A stretch of 64,000 nt of DNA from Sarcomyxa edulis (lineage: Eukaryota > Basidiomycota > Agaricomycetes > Agaricales > Mycenaceae): the NCBI GenBank assembly GCA_009761415.1, contig QUOL01000009.1, positions 992,001-1,056,000 of the forward strand, written 5' to 3'. Below, piece by piece: positions 45,859 through 58,395 of the stretch; within the stretch, counting starts at the first letter, position 1, and each line of letters begins with the position of its first letter. Under the pieces are notes generated by a model. The model made no database searches, was not told the origin of the DNA, and saw nothing but the letters and a program-made list of their open reading frames with translations. The position numbers were made by a program, and so were the translations under genes.

Positions 45859-46926
45859 ACAGCCGATTGGTTCCCATAACTTATTATTCTCAGCATCACC
45901 TACCGTTCGTTTTCGTAATAATCTTTTCCAATTTGTTGTATCATTTCTTGGTTTTGGTGGTCTTATGTTTTCTAGTCATCCTGGTGTTCATTTGCTATCA
46001 ATGAATCAGCTGTTTTTATTGACAAATCCGGATTGGAGTAGACCTCCAAGTATTCCCCAAGTCGAACAGCTCGAACCTGCACTTGGAGAATGTGGATGAG
46101 TGTTTGTACGAAGACGATGCGAAACACATCCTCCTTGACGTGCGCAAACAAGTCGGGCAAATAGAATTACTCACTATGTACACTATCATCGTCACTGTGA
46201 GGGACTCGCCTCTCAAGGCACCAGTGGCACGTCGCTGTTCAAAGGATATGCGTGCACTAACTCGACAGGTTTCTGCGTACTACCAAGTCACTCGAATAGG
46301 TGCGGGATGTATAGATGCTTCACGCTCTCCAGAGACAAGTGAGACAACCGCCCGGAACAGCCCAGAACGCGGCGACACGTGACACATTCGCGTCGCGTCG
46401 CGCGCAGAATCCTCCACATGCCTCTCACTTTGCCACTCTCCGACTCTCTTGGGACTCTCTTTTTGGCTCCAGCATGTATATATCTGCATTTCCACATACT
46501 CAGAGTGCTCGTAGGAAGTAGAATGTTATAGGCGTCTTTAAATGGGTGGTCAACGCAAGGTCACGGTACTTGAATGTGCAGCCCTTACCTAAGCGAGGGT
46601 GGACGCAAGGCGCCTGCACGTGACGCACGTCGCGTCGCGTCGCGTGGAGCTCGCGCGTACGATCATCCCCATGCCTCCCCACTCCTCCTCTCTCTGGATA
46701 CTAAATTCGGGGGCTCTTTTTTTGACTGGAATATGTGTATACCTTCATTTTAGGATAGTCAGAACGTCCATTGAAGGTACGTTGATCTGGATTTCCGCGC
46801 CCTACTTAAATATGCGGAATTTCCTTCATTTCTTCCTAAACACGAGATTCTCCCGATTGATTTATTCTCTGACAACTGGAAAAGACGGAATAAGGATGTA
46901 TACCCTTTAATCAGGACGTATTACAC
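45859..46926. other. Gene-free interval with a diverged tandem duplication
   Basis: Holds the 3' UTR of gene B, a short minus-strand frame (45972-46160) without support, and two diverged copies of a promoter-like unit (46376-46515 and 46617-46770). Each copy starts with CACGTGAC and a (CGCGT) run, then CATGCCTC, a T-tract and a short tail. Confidence 0.5.
46376..46770. repeat. Diverged direct repeat with CACGTGAC and CGCGTCGCG
   Basis: Copy 1 starts with CACGTGAC at 46376 and a CGCGTCGCGTCGCGCG run to 46405. Copy 2 starts with CACGTGAC at 46617 and CGTCGCGTCGCGTCGCGTG to 46647. Both continue through CATGCCTC, CTC-rich sequence, a T5/T7 tract and ATGT(A/G)TATA. Spacing is 241 bp. Confidence 0.55.
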
Positions 46927-46962
46927 ACAACTATGGTGAAGCGGTTATCATGCTTGCCTTCC
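46927..46962 (+). pseudogene. 5' half of a tRNA-Gly(UCC) gene (positions 1-36)
   Basis: Reads exactly like positions 1-36 of tRNA-Gly(UCC): acceptor strand ACAACTA, TG, D-stem GTGA / TCAT around AGCGGTTA, then G, anticodon stem CTTGC and loop CTTCC, ending at the last anticodon base. The A box is present, but there is no 3' half or B box nearby. Immediately after, the sequence turns into an inverted copy of its own D-arm region. The missing half is found at 55982-56016. Confidence 0.75.
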
Positions 46963-46995
46963 GAGAAAACTGGGCCCATGATAACCGCTTCACCG
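46936..46995. repeat. Inverted repeat made from the tRNA D-arm
   Basis: GGTGAAGCGGTTATCATG (46935-46952) is followed after about 24 nt by its exact reverse complement CATGATAACCGCTTCACC (46977-46994), forming an 18-bp stem. The motif CCGAGAAA occurs once in the loop (46961) and once just outside the second arm. Confidence 0.8.
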
Positions 46996-47031
46996 AGAAA
47001 GCACCTGCAAAAGGGGGTACCTAGAGGGAGT

Positions 47032-47041
47032 TGCAAAAATT
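47032..47041 (-). terminator. Pol III T-tract after tRNA-Gly
   Basis: On the minus strand the tRNA 3' end is followed by AATTTTTGC, a run of five T that would terminate RNA polymerase III. Confidence 0.55.
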
Positions 47042-47125
47042 TACAGCCAAGGGGAATCGAACCCCTACCGCTTGCTCACACAGACAGTCTGGAAGGCAAG
47101 CATGATACCGTTTCACCATAGCTGT
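47042..47125 (-). tRNA. tRNA-Gly(UCC) with a 13-nt intron
   Basis: The minus strand folds as a full cloverleaf: acceptor ACAGCTA with TGGCTGT (one T-G pair), D-stem GTGA/TCAT with a GG-containing loop, anticodon stem CTTGC/GCAAG with loop CTTCCA plus A38, T-arm AGGGG-TTCGATT-CCCCT, and discriminator A. Anticodon TCC lies at 47091-47093. The 13-nt intron (47077-47089, minus strand GACTGTCTGTGTG) sits at the canonical 37/38 position. A T5 tract follows the 3' end on the minus strand, a Pol III stop. The A box lacks one T found in the split copy at 46927. Confidence 0.82.
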
Positions 47126-47146
47126 GATGCTACAGGCCCTACTAAG

Positions 47147-47189
47147 GATATCTCGATCGACACTGCCAGGGATATCTCGATCGAGATAT
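47147..47189. repeat. Left palindromic sites GATATCTCGATCG
   Basis: GATATCTCGATCGA occurs at 47147-47160 and again at 47171-47184. The second copy extends into a perfect 18-bp palindrome, ATATCTCGATCGAGATAT (47172-47189). It is nearly identical to the palindrome at 55862-55881 near the other end. Confidence 0.8.
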
Positions 47190-48344
47190 GACCCCACGCC
47201 TCTCCGTACATCAACGTCTTCAAATGGACAAGTCACCGAAAAGGCCTCCCGGCGCAACGAACTTTCCTCGTCCTTGGTATCTCTTCTTTTGCCAATGCAT
47301 CGCCACCTTGTCTGACTCGAACTCTTCCATCCCCTCATCCAATGAATCCCTCGATCCCCAAATCTTTGATCTCGAATTATGAGAATTCGCTCTTGCACGT
47401 TTCGAACACCCGCGACATCTCCTCTACGTTGTTCTTGAATCGAGTAAAACTTCGGGCGGAAACGACGGAAACTCGTTAAAGAGAAAGTTCTTACCACGTC
47501 TGGTCTCGTCAACGAGGATACAGACATGGACGGATCTATGACAGTGGACGGATTTCGATGGCATGCGGCCTTTGATCAAAGTGAGCGCTATCTTCCATCC
47601 GTTATCGATGAATATACTGTACAGCTGGATATCATTGTTGGCGAGTTCAGGTGAGTCGACCTTGTATACTACCGACGAAGATTCGTCAGTTATTGAAAAT
47701 CCGCGGCGCGTCGCTCGTCGTGAGTACATAACCAAGTGAGTTCTCAGACATTTTTTTTCATCCAAAAATTTCAACGACAATCCTGACGGCGGCTCCTACC
47801 CGGACAGGGAGCACATCTTGAGGCGAATTGGTATTCCACCTTCGACTACCTGTTTGTCTCCCATCGGAACGGATCAGTCAGAAGACGACCTCACGTCCTT
47901 CTCATCGCGTCGCGTTCCTTTTGAACTCCCAAATCCGCACTCGGTTCATTAAACGGACGTGTATGTCCAGGAATACATCGATACGGAAACGGTCAGGGGA
48001 GCATAGTCAGAGATAATGAGGGACAAAATCCTTGGAGCAACTGGCGGGAAGGTGTTTACATCTTGTAGAGAGCAGGACGAATCCCGCCACACCGTCGTTC
48101 TCGTCCTGGTGTCCCTTTCCGGAATATGTCAGTATATAGAGCTAGAATTAACGAGTAGGTACATGGTTCAGTGGGGTGTTCAGAACTTACAAAAGTGTGG
48201 TTCAGACCAAAAGACACGATTGCTGTAGACTCGAGGAGCACAGCCACTTTCCAGGCGAACGCGTTCAAACGCGGTGTGTCACCGTGTGACAGAACTCTCG
48301 ACTTCACCTCCTTTCTAACGTTCGTCATTGGTCAGGGCTATATC
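47190..48344. other. Element interval with unresolved frames
   Basis: About 1.15 kb. Plus strand 47526-47653 encodes a plausible piece (MDGSMTVDGFRWHAAF... VQLDIIVGEF) ending at a GTGAGT donor. The minus strand at 47424-47780 has an equally open frame (YKVDSPELANNDIQLYSIF). I could not join either into a gene. One may be an exon of a further element gene or a remnant. Confidence 0.35.
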
Positions 48345-50318
48345 ATGTCGGACGAGGATACCAATGACCGCCGAGAAGCTAGGCATACCTACCGCAATTG
48401 TCTCCGGGTTGCACAGAACAGTCTAGAAGCCGTAGTTCATGCAAGACATGTCCTTGTGGATGAGTTTTCAGATTCGGATGAAGATGTCGGCAATTCCTCT
48501 TTGAATCTGGAGCAAATCGACAAGAGTTTCAAGAGTACTCTCAATGGATACTTGGTGAGTACGTCTTTGTGTCTTTTGCCTCTTGGAGTCTGACACAGGT
48601 CATGGACAACCAGAAAGCGTTGCCAATCGCGCCAAGTCAACGGACCAACGCCACACCCACCACCGGTGCAGGTGCTCAAACTGCAGGATCTCGAGCATCT
48701 GGAACATCAGCGCAGACCCAAACAGCTGGAGCTTCAGGATCTGGATCTGGCGCGACATCCAAGGGTGCGAAGAGCGCTACCACCAAGGTCAGTCCACATG
48801 ATCCAAATCATGTTCTCGATTTGAGTGTTAACCAAGCGGTAGAAAACATCGCACAAGGACAAGGACAAGCAGACAACTCCCGCAAACTCTGGACCAGCCA
48901 CAACTTCTTCAACCTCATCATCTGGAGCCGCGGCCAACACCGCCGTGTTGACTTCTACTCAAATGGCCGATCTTTGGATCACCTTCAGAGAAAAGCCCTG
49001 CCTCACACCTCAAGAGTTCTTGGCTCAAGTGGTAGCGACTCCAAAGAGCATACCCGTTTCTCGATTGGAGGCGCTGCACAACGCGACTCGTGGCGTGGAA
49101 CTCATTACACAGGAAGATGCTGTTTGTGACCTCGTATATATGCTGTGTACCATGGCACTCATCTACTTGCAGGTCCACCTCTTCCAAGATATCAATAAGA
49201 ATCCATACGACGCCAAAACCCTTCTCGAATCCTACCACAAGGACTTTCAATCGTTAAGAAGGGGCACCCTGGTTGAGAACGTTCAGGTGACCAAATCGCA
49301 TTGGGTAGATCTTATCTTTGGCCCTGCTGTTGAGACTGGCTGATACTAACCTCATCACTGGGCGTAGGATCTACAAAATATTGACACCGGATCGCTAACA
49401 CAAACCTGGGTGCAAACCATGGTTTGCAAACTTATGAGCGCTCATTTTGCGCGACGCTGGTATACGAAAACTAGTCATGACCCTCAATTCCCATCTCGGA
49501 TGTATCGGTCCATTTGGGCCGTAGGACTGGAGGGAAGGAACGCTCTTAACGATCAGGATATCGAAGACCCAGAAATGCAGAGATTGTTCGGAAAAGAGTT
49601 GAAAAGGTCCAAGAAAAAGGAGGAACGTGAAGTTGTCGCGCGCAATCGCCTTCTTCAGATGTATGCTCGAGTGCGTCGATTTTCCTTTGAAATCTCGTCT
49701 ATATCATCTCAGTTCCTCGCCATCAGTTCGGACCCATGGTCATTTTAGATCCTTCGTGGCAGATGCGTTCGTTCAGAAACCAGGCCACAGGTCCGGTATC
49801 CCAGGCCGGAGCAATCAATTACTACAATAGAATGGCAACTGAGGTCGACGCAGACCAGCCCCACCCCCTCGCAGAGAATTGTCTTGCAGCTGAGTGGATG
49901 ATTGTCTACGCTATATCTCAATTATACACCGACGGGCTGAATAGCCCACAAGTCGTGATGATCAAGAATGTCTTATGGGAGTTACGACGTTGCTCCCTCA
50001 TCCATCGCGACCCTACCCCCCCTTTGACCGCTACCCCCCAATTGAACACGAACCAGATGTCGTTGAACTTTCCCGTACATGAAGAGATGTTCGAGAGGTG
50101 GTTCAAGCTCCAAGACAATCTTATCCCGGCAGGCGACATGGCTGAACTTCCTCCTGTTCATGATGCCTCTACACAGAGGGGAAGGGCTAGGCAGGCCTTG
50201 AAGACAATCGGTCAGTTTACTCCCCGAATTCATATGCTGCATATGTTAAATTTTTCAACCAGAGACTGGCCGAGTCGAAAAGGCAAGCACCAAGAGCAAA
50301 GGCAAGCGAAAGGCTTGA
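48345..50318 (+). CDS. Unrecognised protein encoded inside the element
   Basis: Six exons join in frame to about 555 residues. It starts MSDEDTNDRREARHTYRNCL, with an acidic helix (HVLVDEFSDSDEDVG). It then has an Ala/Ser/Thr/Gly-rich linker (residues about 75-160), a conserved-looking helical part (ADLWITFREKPCLTPQEFLAQV, LVYMLCTMALIYLQVHLFQD, LMSAHFARRWYTKTSHDPQF, WQMRSFRNQATG, MIVYAISQLYTDGLNSPQ) and a basic end KSKGKRKA that could be a nuclear signal. There is no Cys/His cluster, membrane segment or known domain. The introns (44-70 nt) all remove stops or shift frame, so the model is coherent. It lies on the same strand as and just upstream of the recombinase, which suggests a partner or cargo of the element. 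Confidence 0.6.
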
Positions 50319-50633
50319 ACAGACGGCTTCCAGGTATTGTTACCTTGAATCTTCTATCAACGAAATTGGACTGAACCCTTCAATTAGTCTTTCTCGTGTG
50401 GTTTTACGATGAGATTCGAGGTGATTCTTTCATGCATGCATTCGAACATTCGTTCGGCTCCTCACTTTTCCTACTGTTTCTCTTTCTCTCGGCACTCGTG
50501 TAGTTCTAGATAATAAATGACCTTTGTATCTTGCTAGCGTTGGTCTAGCTATTGTCCGTGATATTTTTCACAAAGTTAACGTTGAGATAATGTGTCTAGA
50601 AGACGCAGGCCAACGTAGGACCAAAAGCTTGAC

Positions 50634-50677
50634 TCGCAAGGTGACCGTGACCAGTTCGCAAGGTGACCGTGACCAGT
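50634..50677 (+). promoter_or_regulatory. Tandem 22-bp repeat carrying GTGACCGTGACC
   Basis: Two perfect consecutive 22-bp copies (50634-50655 and 50656-50677), each containing GTGACCGTGACC, about 210-250 nt before the recombinase start and about 80 nt before a TATA box. The core resembles the GACCGT repeats in the promoter at 15411-15444. Confidence 0.6.
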
Positions 50678-50753
50678 TCAAACTCCGCTAGAAATCCATC
50701 GTCATCGCGTACCACCTCTTCTCTCTCCCTTTCTCCTCATCCTTTCTCCTCAT

Positions 50754-50761
50754 TATATATA
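50754..50761 (+). promoter_or_regulatory. TATA box of the recombinase gene
   Basis: TATATATA 122 nt before the ATG at 50883, preceded by a long CT-rich run. Confidence 0.5.
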
Positions 50762-50882
50762 TTCGACACAAACATTTGTATTATTGGATTCATATTTTGG
50801 GATCCCCAACTCTTCCCCTCCTCATCATTCTCGAGACACGTGACTCATTGGCTCCTATCTTGATTCTCCGATTCTCCGTACG

Positions 50883-53800
50883 ATGCCTTTGGCTGCACCG
50901 CCACAGCCAAGGCAGTCCACTGCGGCATCCAGACAGGCCCTCATCGCTCAACGTCTTGCTGCGCAAGAACCCAACGTAGCACAGGCCTACCAGGAAAGTT
51001 TGGAAAACACTACACATTATCGTTCTCTCGAGAAGGAGACTTTATCACGCCACAAACACATTTCAAATCTATGGAAAGAGTTTGTCGAACAACATGCCGA
51101 AGCAGCCAACATGTCTGCAGTCATCGCTAAAGGGTGCAAACTTCCTACAGAAGGTGGGTGTACAATAAATCTCATTGTATCACGTCAAATTGATCCAGCG
51201 TTCAGGCCAGATGAAGGAGTTCATACGCTTCATGGGTATGTCCATCCCAGGAAAATTAACGGAATACATGAGCAAGAATACTATGTCCACCTACCTTCAC
51301 ACCTTTTACTGCTTGTGGCCACGGTACGGTTGCCAAAAGTTACCTCAGGACGCCCGTTTGCAGGTCACGGCTTATTCTAAATCCCCCGAATTCCTCAACT
51401 TGGCACCTCTCACCAGTCAAATGCGTGTCAAAGCGGTAGCTGACGCTGTGGACATTGCGATCATAGTGCGCGCATGTTGGGAAGATAGAGATCTATACTC
51501 CTCACTTCGAATTCGGATTCAATTCTTGATTACCTCTTTGATAACAGCCCTTACTTCCTCGCGTCCAGGAGCTGTACTCGAATCCGGGTGTCACACAGGC
51601 TCCAACGAGTGCATACATCACGGAGACATCCAATACATCATCATTCCCAACCCCGACGACCCTGCTCATCCTTTCCTCCTTCTCATCGTCTGCCTCAGGT
51701 ATCTCAAAGGCAAACGGCGAGACGACTCAGCGAATCAATATTTCTTTTTGTGTATGGAGGCGCCCGAGAACAGGCAGTGTTGCTCCGTGATGCTTCTGTT
51801 GTATATTGCTATTCTTGACAAGGTCTTCGTCGATGTCCACACTGTCGATGATATCTTATCACCAGCAATCCATCCCACCGGTGTCCATCGTCTTCGTATC
51901 AGACCGGAGATGCACAATATTCCTGTGTTACGCAAGGATGTTCGAACATCCAGCGGGTGGGTCACATCTCCTACCGAAGCATTCTCATATGCTACCTATA
52001 ACACGCTTCTCCGTGACCAGAGTCTGAGAGCTGGCTTTCCAGGTAATGTTCCTTTTCATTCAAGAGAACATATAACCATCTAACACGGTTCACAAAGTTG
52101 CCATGATTTCGTATGACTCGCGACGTGGAGCTGCGAAAAATTATAGTCTTCTCTTAGCGGAAGCAGAACTCAAAATCTTGATGGGGCACAATCCAGGTTC
52201 TAACCAGTTCTATGTGAGCCTTTAGTACATTTTGATCACTTCACAACAGCTTAACAACCATCCAGCACTCATATCAAACTCGATACTCTACCGTCGATCT
52301 CTCAGCAGTGCACCGTGGCCAAGAACAAGACAAGCAAGTAACGGCAAACATGGATGCACGTTTGGATTTATGCTCATCGTTACGTATCTACTAACACGTC
52401 CCTCTTGCGATTTGATACAGGTATGCATGCGTTTATCTTCCAGGAGAGATGTCGATGCTCCCGTACGGTTGAATATGTCAGAAAGAAACGATCTTTTCAA
52501 TGAGCCAGTCCTGATACAAATGAGGGCCGATAGACGAAAGGTAAACTCCCTTGCAATATATGAATACATATTATTGAATGGCAACCCCTCTGTAGGTCAT
52601 GACCTTGATCAACACACTGGGAACCCGACTTCTCGCGCTTGATGAAAACTCAGATGAAGTTCCTCCTTTGAAGACGGAGATAGAAGAACTGTCTGAGAAG
52701 GCTAAGAAAACATACCTCAAATACACAAACATTGTGAATAGGGAAACCGCATTGCGTGTAAAGGCTTCTCGGGCGGACTTCTTCGAAAGCGCGTCGACAC
52801 GTCAGTTGAGAGGAGAGGTATATGCTATATCGAGTTTGTCGCTGCGTATATGCGCTAACTCTTTTCACTTACAGTCTAGTAATACGCTGATACCCATGGC
52901 CGCAACTTCGGTGTCAAGACTTGCGCGTATCTCGAACCACCCAGAGTCATCTTTGACTGGAACGGCGTCATCGAGTTCAATTGGCCCCAACAAAGAAAAC
53001 CATGCATCTCCTACTTTTGTCCCTAACGATACAACTACACATGACCCATACGACGACCTTCTCGCACTTTTCCACAATTTGACGTCGGAATCGCGTAGCA
53101 CGCACTTAGGCAAATGCGTTGACATGCTATTATCTCTGCCGTCCATGACGTTGGCAGAGTGCTACCCAGGCCAATTTCCTACTGCCGAAAATAAATGCCC
53201 GGTGTGTGATAAGCAGTGCTCGTGAGTCTCATCATGATCCTACGACTACACGCTCTCATCATTTTTCCTTCACAGAACGCTTCATGTCAAGACTGCATCT
53301 CTCAATGGAGAAACTGCCGCACATATCCACAAATGTATCACAGCACAGAAATCGCAAGAGGCCGGGCAGTTTCTGGATGACAGCTATGTCCCTCAAAGAT
53401 GTCTGTGGAGGTCCTGTCGTCGACCTTCTACGATATGGGCCTCCCGAGCAGATTTCATTGAGCATGTCAATACGCACATTGATCCTATGCAGTACCGCCA
53501 CCCAGGGCAAGCTCAGCGTTGTCGCTGGAACATAGACGGTGATAGTGACTGTGAAGAGACCACATGTGATGACTGGCACATCCATTTCTCCGAATACCAC
53601 GCTATAAACACGTCGCTTGTGGTGGTTGTAAAGTATTGCTATCTGTGTAATATGTGGTAAGTATCGAGTGGTTGATCATCAATGTCTTGCTTACATATAC
53701 ATGATTCAGGTTTATCGACATCGACGGAGACGGGGCTGCCTTCAGAGAACATTCCTTAGCTCACTTTGAAACCCTATTTTTGGAGTTCATGACGCGACCA

Positions 53801-55339
53801 ACAACCCCTGTTGATCTGACGCCCCGAGAAATTGTCATCATCGACGATCATATCGAGTTTGAACATGGTACCGGATTTGGTGGAGCTCAGCCAGAATTTC
53901 ACGGATATGTACGCCGGAGTCGCGTGATTACACCCATGTTTTGCCCATGGTGTGTCTATGACGAATCACTAGATATGAGTGAACGTATGAAGCAGTAAGT
54001 GCCTTATCATCATCATAGTCACTCAATGAGACTTAATAGTCCTCGCTCCTAGATGGGCGGACACACAGCTTTTCTACGTACATCTCTGTATCCACACAGA
54101 TGTCATATCTGACACGCCATCATTGTGCCCTGCGCCATCATGCGGGAGTCATTTATTTTCCGCCTACGAACTTCTCTACCACCTCGTGACTTATCATCGA
54201 CTCCCTGTATGTCGCGGGACGAGGCAATCTATCGTTCGGGGACTGAAGCTTCCAGAAAATGTTTCTGAGACATCAGACACGTCGATCTCGACAACTGGTA
54301 CGACATTCGCAGAGATGTCTGCCGACACGTCTAATACTTCCATGGAAACACACGCCACCATGGAGTCCGAGGTTCGGAGAGGCAAGAGAAGAGCTGTGAT
54401 CGTGCATGATGAAGACGATGATGAAGACGAACTTGTGGTGGTCAGGAACAAGACAAGAAAAAGGGCTCGAAGGGCTGTGATCTTGGATGAAGAGGATTAC
54501 GAAGATGAACCTCTGAACGCTGCGGGGGTGGTTGGGAACAAGAAAAGAAGATCTGATCGGGTAGTGGTCCGGGAGGGGAAGATCAAAGCTTTCTGCAACG
54601 GATGCTTCAACGTCCGCGCGGACATATCATCTCATCTTGCTGCCGCCAAAGTCAGGGGCGACAAATGCTACTTGGTGAGTACCTACCAGATTGTAACGGA
54701 CGGCGAAAGAAGCCAGGAGAAGATTCAGTGGGTTCCAGATGAGGTCAGTTCCGTTTGACTGTCCAAACCGTTTCTGCTAACTGTCGTCACCCACAGAATG
54801 GAAGCTTCGTCGTCAGTTCAAAGGGAGGTACTCACAGATGCCACAAGTGCCGCCTTGTTTTCCACGACATCAGGGACCATCTTCCCGACCATTGTGACCA
54901 GAAGGTATTCCGAATCAAGGACCCAGCGTTGGGACGCAAGGGTCGTGAGGAGTTTGGGCCCGAGCACAACTTTTTGGAGTGGTTGGAAACAGCTCCTCCG
55001 CGCAAAGATGAGAAGGTACGTCATAGTGTAGGCGTCTATAGAACAAACTGATAACCAAGAACAATGCAGGACACAATGACAGAACTACACCAACCAAAGG
55101 TCGATATATCTCTCGTTTGCTTGAGACTGCTTGCTGATAACTTATTTATTCAGCCTTATCGATGTATGGGTTGCTCCCGCGAGTTCCGAGACATTCGTCA
55201 ACATTTAGACGGTCCCGCAAGCAGCAAGAGTGGATGTCAAAACCGCAAATACCGCGTCAGATATGGTGATAACTGGGGCAACACCATCAAATTGCCTGTT
55301 TCATCGTCCCCGGTGGCTGGGTCCAGTACCTCGATTTAA
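50883..55339 (+). CDS. Tyrosine recombinase with C-terminal zinc-finger array
   Basis: Probably the enzyme that moves the element. About thirteen exons give roughly 1250 residues. After an N-terminal helical part, the catalytic domain shows SSRPGAVLESGC (first Arg), ILIVCL-type strand then LKGKRRDD (hairpin Lys), TYNTLLRDQSLRAGFP, SYDSRRGAAKN (second Arg), LMGHNPGSNQFY (His) and HSYQTRYSTVDL (nearby Tyr candidates). This order fits fungal DUF3435/Crypton-like recombinases. The C-terminal half, after a coiled linker, holds a series of Cys/His fingers: CPVCDKQCS, CLWRSCRRP...HVNTH, CYLCNMWF...HSLAHF, CPAPSCGSHLFSAYELLYHLVTYH, CNGCFNVRADISSHL, CHKCRLVFHDIRDHLPDHC, CMGCSREFRDIRQHL, with an acidic KR-rich patch between. 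The fingers may recognise the DNA target. The exact catalytic tyrosine is not certain. Confidence 0.75.
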
Positions 55340-55438
55340 ACGCTTCTGACCTTCAAACGCCATTCCTCGTCCCCTGTCTTTCTATCAAGTCTGTGTCCTT
55401 TACATCCAAGTTTTCAATCCCCATTGTTATTGTTTTTG

Positions 55439-55689
55439 TCTCGCATTAGCCTTTGTCGACGCGCTACCCTACAGTTTTCTTTGTCGATTTTTCCGTCTCG
55501 CATTATCCTTCCCTTACACCATCGTCGACGCGCTACCCTAGAGTCTGTATTATGCATCGTCATCATCCCCTGTTTTCATCCTCTATCATTATCCGTGTTC
55601 TTCAATCCCGATTCCTCTGTACACATTGTTTTTGTTTCCGTCTCGCATTATCCTTCCCTTATACCATCGTCGACGCGCTACCCCTACAG
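55439..55689. repeat. Three direct repeats after the recombinase gene
   Basis: Three copies of a unit with TCTCGCATTA at the left and GTCGACGCGCTACCC at the right: 55439-55474 (shortened), 55493-55543 and 55638-55689. Copies 2 and 3 are almost identical over 50 bp. They lie in the 3' flank of the recombinase, between its stop and the right palindrome. Confidence 0.75.
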
Positions 55690-55861
55690 TTTGTATCTTA
55701 GAGTCTGTCTTGTACTGTTACATTCAAGGTTACATTAGAGTATTTTATGACTTGTCCATTTTTGGGACTTACCAAGAGGGAGGTGCCACAACGTTATTCG
55801 GGTGGACCACACAGTAATAGGTTGTTGAACGCAAGGGGCTGATTCGGGAATGAGTTCAGAA

Positions 55862-55881
55862 GATATCACGATCGTGATATC
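55862..55881. repeat. Right palindrome GATATCACGATCGTGATATC
   Basis: Perfect 20-bp palindrome about 100 bp inside the right tRNA half. It differs from the left palindrome (47172-47189) mainly by an A/T change at the symmetric position (CACGATCGTG versus CTCGATCGAG). Confidence 0.85.
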
Positions 55882-55981
55882 AGTACTGACGATTTACTAG
55901 GGTTGCTTCCGAAGCACCGCCACCGCGAAATCCCGCTACGAGTTCTATGGTCACTTCACCGTAGAAGTGGTTTCTGACGAC

Positions 55982-56016
55982 AGCAAGCGGCAGGGGTTCG
56001 ACTCCCCTTAGTTGTA
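55982..56016 (+). pseudogene. 3' half of a tRNA-Gly(UCC) gene (positions 38-73)
   Basis: Reads A38, anticodon-stem GCAAG, CGGC, T-arm AGGGG-TTCGACT-CCCCT, acceptor strand TAGTTGT and discriminator A. The B box is complete. TAGTTGT pairs perfectly with the ACAACTA of the half at 46927, and GCAAG pairs with its CTTGC. A T5 tract (56022-56026) follows. Just upstream, CTATGGT and GAAGTGGTT faintly resemble the 5' half, so some tRNA-derived sequence may also lie on the inner side. Confidence 0.75.
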
Positions 56017-56021
56017 TATAC

Positions 56022-56026
56022 TTTTT
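56022..56026 (+). terminator. Pol III T-tract after the 3' tRNA half
   Basis: TTTTT about 6 nt after the discriminator base, as expected for the original tRNA gene. Confidence 0.5.
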
Positions 56027-58395
56027 GCTCTCCAAAAATTTGACCTCCAGACGGTCTCGAAACCGAGGAGAACGAGTTAGAACGAGCTCGAACTCGAAAA
56101 ATCCCTTTTTTCTAGTTTGTCAGCTGACTTGCGCTTTAGACTATCCTCTTGAGGACCTAGATAGCTCCCTCAATATATCGAGAGTATTCTCAGAAAACAT
56201 TGGGCCCTTAGGCCCCGAATTGATTTACGTAGAGCGTCCCCGATGAGGAGTTTGATGAGGAATAATGGTCACATGCTCAGACACGTCGCGTCTCGGGCTG
56301 GAAGTCGGTGACGTTGTGTCTGGGTTGTGCAAGAAGGCTCATAGATCACTAATAGCTATGACCGCTGGAGTAGAAGGATATAAAGATTGTGTAACGCCAA
56401 TGTAATGCATTGATGCTTTATTCAATCATGACTGCTAGTGGGCCTTGGGTGGGCATGCTCTTAGTATAGGTACAACGTATGAGTGAGATACAGTTACCCT
56501 ATGAGAGGAGAGAGGTCCAGTAAGCAGAAGTACAAGCGCTCGTCAATTTGGCCGTCGAATATGACTCAGGACCTGAGTATCCTATTCTTGTCCTCAAGAG
56601 ACACGTGAGAATAACAGACATCCATAGTCAATGAATTGAGGAGTGAACCGAGCATGTATATATTCAGGGCATAGTGAAGTTTCTGAACGCCGGGGTGTAG
56701 ATATATTCGGGTGAGTACAAGCTACTTTCACCGTAGGCTCTCGCCACAGTTCGACTAAACATAACGCCAGTATTGCGCCGATTTCCTGGTAGCTGAGTGC
56801 TGAGGGGGCACCCGGGCCATATGCCGTTGCCACACTAGTAAGATCATTGTATCCAAGTTAAGTATCCGGTAAAGGACTCGCGAGTGGCATCTCGTAGCCT
56901 GGACGAATGTGCTCTCGTTGATTTAAACGGTCGTGTCAAATTGCTTGGCCTCGTCGTACTGTAGATCACCGGCTCGATCTGGCTAACATGGAAGCAGTCA
57001 GGCTCAAGAGACTGATAGTAGCCTGAGAAACAGCACTAGGCTAAACTGACCAGAGATCCGACTGCAGGACAGGCTCTATCCAAGATATCGAATTCATGAT
57101 GTGCAGTGTTTATATACCCATGTTCTTACCTCCGTTCGGGCCGTGCTAATTCGTCGTAAAAGTGAGCGCCTGGGCCCTTTCGGGCTGCGTATACGTGTTC
57201 ACCGTAGGGGCGCCGCGGAGTTGGTCGGTCACCGGGTTGGTAGCAGGCTATATCACCTTTTATCTACGCCGGGAAATAACCAATTGGCCCTACGCATCCG
57301 GTGCATCCGGTGCATGAAGATGCGAAGGTATCCGGCCTTCAGTACTCAGGCAATTCAATGGCTGAAGGGTTTAGCAAGGAGGTGTTTAAGGGGATGTTCA
57401 TTTCGGTGGGACTTGACGAATCGAGGAGGGATGGCTCAAATTGGGAGGAAACGCGTGGCACTGTTATGGCATCATTGACAAGCAAGTCTAGGATATTTAG
57501 AAAGAAGGTTGACTGACCTACAGGTACGCGTGGCATATGAGCTTTAGTCGTGACCTGGTGTTCACACGACTGTCGTCGAGAGTCACCGACGCCCGTGCTA
57601 TAAACATAGTAAAGGACGTATAAAGTTGAGAGCTGTGAGAAGAAGAACGAGCTATCAGAACATGACACGTACGGGGGAGCTACTGACAGTTCACGCTTAT
57701 GATGTCAGCGGTACGTATCTGTTCGCCGATCTCGAATGGGGTATACCAGAAAGCGTGAACATCATACATACGTTCCGTTGACCTTCGGTTTGTAGTCCGG
57801 AGAGAGCCTCGAGGCGAAGGCGCTAATCGATAACACAGTTGAACTTCCGATAGTCCGTCCGACAAGTTGATAGATGGATACCAGAGACATTTGTCACCTC
57901 CAGGCCGGGTAAACGTATAAGGGTAATGGTGGCGTTGGCTGGAGGATCCTAGTGAATCAGTAGCACTACTCACAAGCAATCAACAATTGAATTCATTGAT
58001 GGAGTGATTGCAGTGATTGTCAAGATGTGCTATAGCTCGCCCAGTATATATGGCCGACTGCAACGGTAGTCTGTAGGTCGGGGTATTCACGCGGATCTGG
58101 GTGGATGGGCCGGGGCTACAGCGCTTGTGAGGATATCGCGAGGATGCTTCGGTCTCGAGGCAGCCTGAGATATCGATCAATTCAGGAATCAATTTGGGAA
58201 GATCGGTCCAAAAATCATTCCGATATTTGGCCCGTATTTGTTTCAGGTTCTTTCGCAGGCAGTTGCCTCCGGATGGAGCATCTTAGCTTTCTACCATCGG
58301 GCGTCTGATTTGCCTTGATTCTATCTATTTCACCAGTATGGAGCCTTCATTTCTTGGCCTTAAACTTTCCACCCAGGCCAAACCCCGAAAAAATC
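56027..58395. other. Gene-free interval, possibly decayed genes
   Basis: About 2.4 kb. Candidate frames at 56594-56833 (minus, begins MATAYGPGAPSALSYQEIG), 57301-57516 (plus, GFSKEVFKGMFISVGLDESRR) and 57680-57979 (minus) have no recognised relatives and cannot be joined. I see no RNA gene or repeat. Confidence 0.35.

Follow-up and report, generated by a model that had tools for sequence, protein, structure and literature searches.

The window analysed here is a stretch of 64,000 nucleotides (nt) from Sarcomyxa edulis (GenBank assembly GCA_009761415.1, contig QUOL01000009.1), corresponding to C40:992001-1056000 of the 35.6-Mb, 40-contig assembly. A transfer RNA (tRNA) gene for tRNA-Gly(UCC), termed tRNA1, lies in this window in two separate halves. 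The DNA between the halves holds a tyrosine recombinase gene and two matching palindromes, which may mark the ends of a mobile element.

The split tRNA-Gly(UCC) gene

The two halves of tRNA1 and their outer flanks are located as follows.

46617-46782, plus strand: upstream block common to the tRNA-Gly(UCC) loci of contigs C36 and C37 (flank comparison)
46927-46962, plus strand: 5' half of tRNA1, nt 1-36, exact at C36, C37 and the window
55982-56016, plus strand: 3' half of tRNA1, nt 38-73, of which 33 nt are exact at C36, C37 and the window
56017-56247, plus strand: flank on the downstream side of the tRNA gene, containing a T run and resembling the C36 downstream flank

The preliminary description of this DNA had placed the halves at these positions and assigned them to one gene, and both statements are confirmed by the exact copies on C36 and C37 together with the homology of the flanks. 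When up to 3 mismatches were admitted, the 36-nt 5' half and the 33-nt piece of the 3' half were each found at three places in the genome, all exact. The three places coincide and represent an intact gene on C36 (1805777-1805858, minus strand), an intact gene on C37 (275981-276098, plus strand) and the window. ARAGORN assigned an intron of 10 nt to the C36 gene and of about 47 nt to the C37 gene, and the joined halves, checked with the same program, were called as tRNA-Gly(tcc). Upstream, 46617-46782 is identical to the flank of the C36 gene at 139 of 166 positions without gaps (84%) and to that of the C37 gene at 76%. Downstream, 143 of the 173 aligned positions of 56016-56247 agree with the C36 flank in an alignment that has many gaps, and a gapped BLAST alignment of this flank including the 3' half gave 64%. 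As the halves are exact and the outer flanks are C36-like on both sides, a once intact gene was opened here. Chance likeness of two tRNA pieces was ruled out by the flank homology along with the exact identity. The locus formerly belonged, as an ordinary copy, to a small family of tRNA-Gly(UCC) genes and was opened at the intron site.

A genome pattern which also admits tRNA2, a complete tRNA gene inside the insert described below, found four tRNA-Gly(UCC) 5' halves, those of C36, C37, the split gene and tRNA2. The Rfam tRNA search gave 56 tRNAs among the 63 of 1249 candidates which were scored and is no census. Nucleotide 37 of tRNA1 is not retained, position 46963 being G where all three intact genes have A. 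The halves show no change in 69 nt compared to the intact genes (95% bound of 4.2% divergence), suggesting that the split is probably recent. The intron accounts for 10 of 82 nt (~12%) in the C36 gene and for ~47 of 118 nt (~40%) in the C37 gene, so that landing in an intron is only weakly surprising and is not strong evidence of targeting.

The upstream block (~120-170 bp, TCGCGTCGCGTCGCG lying close to its beginning) was found at 46388-46507 and 46617-46782 and also at C36 and C37, with two copies each at the split gene and C36. No further loci appeared among the matches listed in the genome, which is a lower bound. At C37, a 41-bp part of the block is inverted downstream, and the rather long intron of the tRNA gene holds CACGTGAC, a word also present in the upstream block.

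Palindromes, recombinase gene and junction DNA of the insert

The palindromes and the recombinase gene of the insert are located as follows.

47147-47190, plus strand: putative left end, GATATCTCGATCGA (47147-47160) followed by the palindrome GATATCTCGATCGAGATATG (47171-47190) (repeat D8)
50883-55339, plus strand: gene 2, tyrosine recombinase of 13 exons and 1258 amino acids, DUF3435, with a Cys/His-rich C-terminal half
55862-55881, plus strand: putative right end, perfect palindrome GATATCACGATCGTGATATC (genome pattern search)

The palindromes have the layout GATATC-n-CGATCG-n-GATATC, with 1 mismatch in the left copy and none in the right copy. A genome search for GATATCNCGATCGNGATATC with up to 2 mismatches found two places with 0-1 mismatch, both at the ends of the insert, while ~0.03 such places are expected genome-wide under uniform base frequencies. 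A third place on C37 with 2 mismatches was rejected; it reads like retroelement coding DNA and its matches to the element ends are at chance level (E of at least 0.069). Comparing 20 bp on each side, the longest word common to both ends is 6 bp at the palindromes (GATATC, CGATCG) and 4 bp at the tRNA junctions. Because the palindromes are rare and matching and share these 6-bp words, and because the right one is directly followed by sequence known from another locus, they were taken as the ends of the element, an assignment to which we give about an even chance.

Gene 2 was modelled by hand, and its 13 exons give an unbroken frame. In the scanned residues 1-546, residues 192-540 match DUF3435 (PF11917; 123.3 bits, E=1.6e-35), and the fungal-type tyrosine recombinase reported earlier between the halves is thereby substantiated. 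DUF3435 is described as the family of the Starship captains (PMC12134995). Gene 2 adjoins neither tRNA half; it follows gene 1, and ~520 bp separate its end from the right palindrome. Searches with its N-terminal part, PF11917 and its C-terminal half found one copy in the genome, such single-copy results being lower bounds. The sole relative among 7994 scored proteins is P0001 of Mycena polygramma, with 37% identity which includes the Cys/His-rich C-terminal half. When 7996 candidates were scored with the alignment of these two sequences, no further relative reached E<=0.01. No relative was found by tblastn in prokaryote and viral contigs, where the pattern matched 27 and 2 stretches, respectively, and the PDB sequence search gave 0 matches. 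The candidate catalytic residues R210, R378/R379 and Y411 are common to gene 2 and the Mycena relative. GCR1_C gave no match at E<=1 in residues 1-546 and 654-1258 of gene 2 or in the whole Mycena relative, and no transposase domain was found in the scanned parts of gene 1 and gene 2. Downstream of the recombinase gene and ahead of the right palindrome, the 3' tail contains repeats at 55390-55711, with units holding TCGACGCGCTACCC.

Junction DNA lies between the palindromes and the tRNA halves, 184 bp on the left (46963-47146) and 100 bp on the right (55882-55981), and includes three recognizable pieces.

46977-46994, minus strand: perfect 18-bp copy, in inverted orientation, of the 5'-half D-arm with the A-box region (inverted repeat I5)
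47042-47125, minus strand: complete inverted tRNA-Gly(UCC), tRNA2 (Rfam 54.9 bits; ARAGORN, 13-nt intron)
55882-55935, plus strand: sequence like C36:536941-537006, 51/54 identity outside gaps, with 12 nt of the C36 locus missing

The intact tRNA-Gly(UCC) noticed earlier near the split gene is real and corresponds to tRNA2, which lies 21 bp away from the element's putative left end. In the mature part, it differs from tRNA1 by 6 transitions and 1 deletion. One acceptor pair among these changes is compensated, and tRNA2 thus looks functional. The upstream block present at the other tRNA-Gly(UCC) loci was not seen beside it. The inverted D-arm copy begins at CATG, and its score was reached by 0 of 2000 shuffles. 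At this left junction, GGTGAAGCGGTTATCATG and its exact copy in inverted orientation enclose a 24-bp spacer, with the border of tRNA and element near the spacer middle. The left and right junction pieces share a short CTTCACCG-AGAA, which was equalled in 38 of 2000 shuffles. The right 100 bp contain no significant copy of the 5' half, and their interpretation as a diverged 5'-half copy was dropped as 410 of 2000 shuffles were equally good (59 of 2000 for the inverse). The C36-like sequence on the right opens at 55882, the first base past the palindrome.

The other gene of the insert precedes the recombinase gene.

48345-50318, plus strand: gene 1, orphan protein of ~540-560 amino acids, several exons (open reading frames of exons, borders by eye)

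One copy of gene 1 was found in the genome. It showed no relative among 1740 scored proteins at E<=10 and no Pfam family over the cut-off.

Arrival of the insert and its host-DNA patchwork

The features described above are consistent with a cut-and-paste tyrosine-recombinase element of ~8.7 kb (47147-55881) with palindromic ends, lodged in the tRNA-Gly(UCC) gene, a reading on which our confidence is evenly divided. The ends of such an element would be the palindromes built from GATATC and CGATCG, which would serve as recombination sites. Pairing of both GATATC ends by the recombinase would release the element as a circle with one GATATC, and the circle would insert at a matching GATATC. The ~290 bp of junction DNA, comprising tRNA2, the inverted D-arm copy and the C36-like piece, would then be host DNA or repair filler that either predated the insertion or arose from faulty end-joining in its course. 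The CATG start of the D-arm copy would fit a broken end which folded back and was then copied.

Several points weigh against this reading. It requires two steps or one untidy step, and an empty site bearing one GATATC is not known. As a candidate empty site, the C36:537k locus was rejected; GATATC is missing there, and its left side shows no significant similarity to the left flank (8% of random flanks equal it). GATATC sits within the palindromes, so that the shared GATATC is not independent evidence, and the palindrome can alternatively be an accessory site of the recombinase within a larger element. The candidate residue H400 is Q in the Mycena relative, leaving the putative active site partly conserved. 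The predicted structure of Mycena P0001 (mean predicted local distance difference test score, pLDDT, 35.3) is uninformative and was not used.

The position and age of the host DNA captured inside the left end bear on the competing explanations. Region 47214-48028 is composed of pieces of an RRM-like gene (C36), SNF5 (C36), C34 and, in reversed orientation, C12.

47214-47370, plus strand: compressed copy of C36:1789700-1790074, host gene with an RRM-like segment (collinear exact blocks)
47434-47670, plus strand: compressed copy of C36:1811509-1811888, host SNF5 gene (SNF5 by Pfam, 4.2e-10)
47671-47809, plus strand: copy of C34:1008768-1008915, 120/135 identity outside gaps
47838-48028, minus strand: copy of C12:1221639-1221872, within a 336-amino-acid open frame, 166/187 identity outside gaps

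The patchwork consists of exact blocks of 9-47 bp, arranged in order and with few substitutions; several blocks abut exactly with 4-106 source nt skipped. The RRM-like host gene scores 19.6 bits with PF00076, just below the cut-off of 20.7. The chain of exact blocks in its copy reaches 125 nt, compared to at most 40 in 300 control pieces, and 47278-47370 shows 86/92 identity outside gaps, without 10 source nt and with 1 nt extra. The SNF5 copy (227/234 identity outside gaps) is without 146 source nt and has 3 nt extra, the C34 copy is without 13 and has 4 extra, and the C12 copy is without 47 and has 4 extra. Two stretches are unmatched, 47371-47433 (63 nt; weak 20-nt match, E 0.27) and 47810-47837 (28 nt). 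Divergence outside gaps, with wide intervals, is 3.0% for SNF5, 6.5% for the RRM-like piece, 11.1% for C34 and 11.2% for C12, and these differences suggest that the pieces were perhaps not captured all at once. With ~11% divergence against 0 changes in the tRNA halves, the C34 and C12 patches are probably older than the split, although the sources themselves may have acquired some of the 11%. Origin of the SNF5 piece from a spliced message was ruled out, since the intron start is kept and part of an exon is missing. The C34 locus was also considered as a lost tRNA-Gly locus and rejected, as ARAGORN found no tRNA in 3.1 kb there; 160 bp of it recur in the region downstream at C36 and were taken for a putative dispersed repeat.

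The two C36 source genes straddle the intact C36 tRNA-Gly(UCC) at distances of about 16 kb and 5.7 kb. For independent sources, the probability that at least two of four lie within 16 kb of one of the three tRNA-Gly(UCC) loci is P=4e-5, or P=7e-5 with five sources when the C36:537k piece, which is not near tRNA-Gly(UCC), is added; the figure is ~0.6% if both C36 genes represent one template. This closeness was noticed after the fact. It suggests that the element was once in contact with the C36 tRNA-Gly(UCC) locus, while an earlier insertion there is not proven.

The first alternative is the one favoured in the preliminary description, in which the element targets a tRNA anticodon loop or intron. 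Here the whole of 46963-55981 would be the element, inserted by the recombinase into the intron or anticodon loop of tRNA-Gly(UCC). The D-arm and its 18-bp inverted copy would be the arms of the left site, and tRNA2 would be cargo replacing the broken gene. Part of the earlier proposal stands, as an insertion did split the gene and a DUF3435 protein is encoded inside, but targeting itself is not shown by one copy. The insert sits in one of the four tRNA-Gly(UCC) 5' halves found, the inverted arms have the junction near the middle of their spacer, and CTTCACCG-AGAA is common to both sides. The missing upstream block beside tRNA2 would suit a carried copy, and two of four patch sources flank the intact C36 gene as if the element had once been there. 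Against these, the tRNA junctions have no common word longer than 4 bp and the right side is without a significant 5'-half copy. Known recombinase sites typically have 11-13-bp arms and 6-8-bp spacers (PMC3212892), compared to 18 and 24 bp here. Further recombinase copies with tRNA flanks, envisaged earlier as a comparison, were sought, and the single copy found leaves no second insertion to compare. Direct targeting of the intron is possible though unlikely, and the sequence gives better support to a palindrome-ended element within junction DNA. The most specific form of the proposal, a captain-family element specific for tRNA-Gly(UCC) introns which brings its own replacement tRNA and whose patches record an earlier stay at C36, seems rather improbable.

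A second alternative, which we consider improbable, is that the tRNA gene suffered a double-strand break whose ends were joined, through filler copied in on both sides, to a loose element copy; the recombinase would then not have chosen the site. The 18-bp fold-back copy at the left junction does resemble templated end-joining filler, and the C36, C34 and C12 patches and the short C36 piece on the right are filler-like. However, the patchwork lies inside the left palindrome and thus seems to be the element's own rather than the junction's, and the C34 and C12 patches, 11% diverged against 0/69 nt in the halves, probably predate the split. Break capture accounts for the fold-back copy and not for the apparent age of the patches. 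That the halves are transcribed and joined in trans as a working tRNA, and hence unchanged in 69 nt, is very hard to credit, as a recent insertion accounts for their identity, three intact tRNA-Gly(UCC) genes remain and the sequences beside the halves are not significantly complementary (794 of 2000 shuffles as good).

Comparison with known systems

No eukaryotic tyrosine-recombinase element is known to us to use tRNA genes. In the open-licence literature, as far as its accessible text extends, no description of such an element in a eukaryotic tRNA gene was found. The earlier suggestion that elements of this kind are undescribed in mushrooms holds for recombinase elements that split a tRNA gene, but captain-type Starships are reported in the basidiomycete Tremella fuciformis (PMC13066641).

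The element shares with Starships an unbroken recombinase of the same Pfam family. Starships have direct repeats and in some cases terminal inverted repeats, and the GATATC and CGATCG at both putative ends here are possible short direct and inverted repeats. It differs in size, being 8.7-9.0 kb compared to 15-700 kb in Starships, and in gene order; the recombinase leads as the 5' gene in Starships (PMC12134995), whereas here it is the last gene and reads toward the right end. Starships often carry cargo, whereas no cargo of known function is present here, the one other gene being an orphan. Some Starships are described to prefer other transposons or 5S rDNA (PMC12134995). With CryptonF it shares small size around a tyrosine recombinase gene, and the GATATC at both putative ends recalls the 6-bp terminal direct repeats of most fungal Cryptons (PMC3212892). 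The DUF3435 recombinase, the lack of a match in the scanned parts to GCR1_C, the domain of CryptonF recombinases, the second gene and the palindromic ends distinguish it from CryptonF.

Insertion into tRNA genes is known from Dada elements of fish, some around the anticodon and some in tRNA-Gly, in which the present insertion resembles them (PMC8869645). Unlike this element, Dada has a DDE transposase and target duplications at some sites, and tRNA-targeting DNA transposons are described as being of the DDE type (PMC8869645). The tRNA-targeting elements which insert near tRNA genes are described as retrotransposons (PMC5006619).

Even if it does not aim at tRNA genes, this is a small, gene-complete DUF3435 element, apparently present in a single copy and with clearly marked putative ends. 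It offers a tractable case for site choice by captain-type recombinases and also contains a peculiar, compressed patchwork of host DNA. In bacteria and archaea, tRNA genes are very often used by tyrosine recombinases, whose integration usually leaves an intact tRNA on one side. The present locus resembles these systems in the combination of a tyrosine recombinase and a tRNA gene, and differs in that both tRNA halves stay apart. If the element does aim at tRNA-Gly and carries a spare copy, it would represent an independent eukaryotic version of the prokaryotic tRNA-gene strategy.

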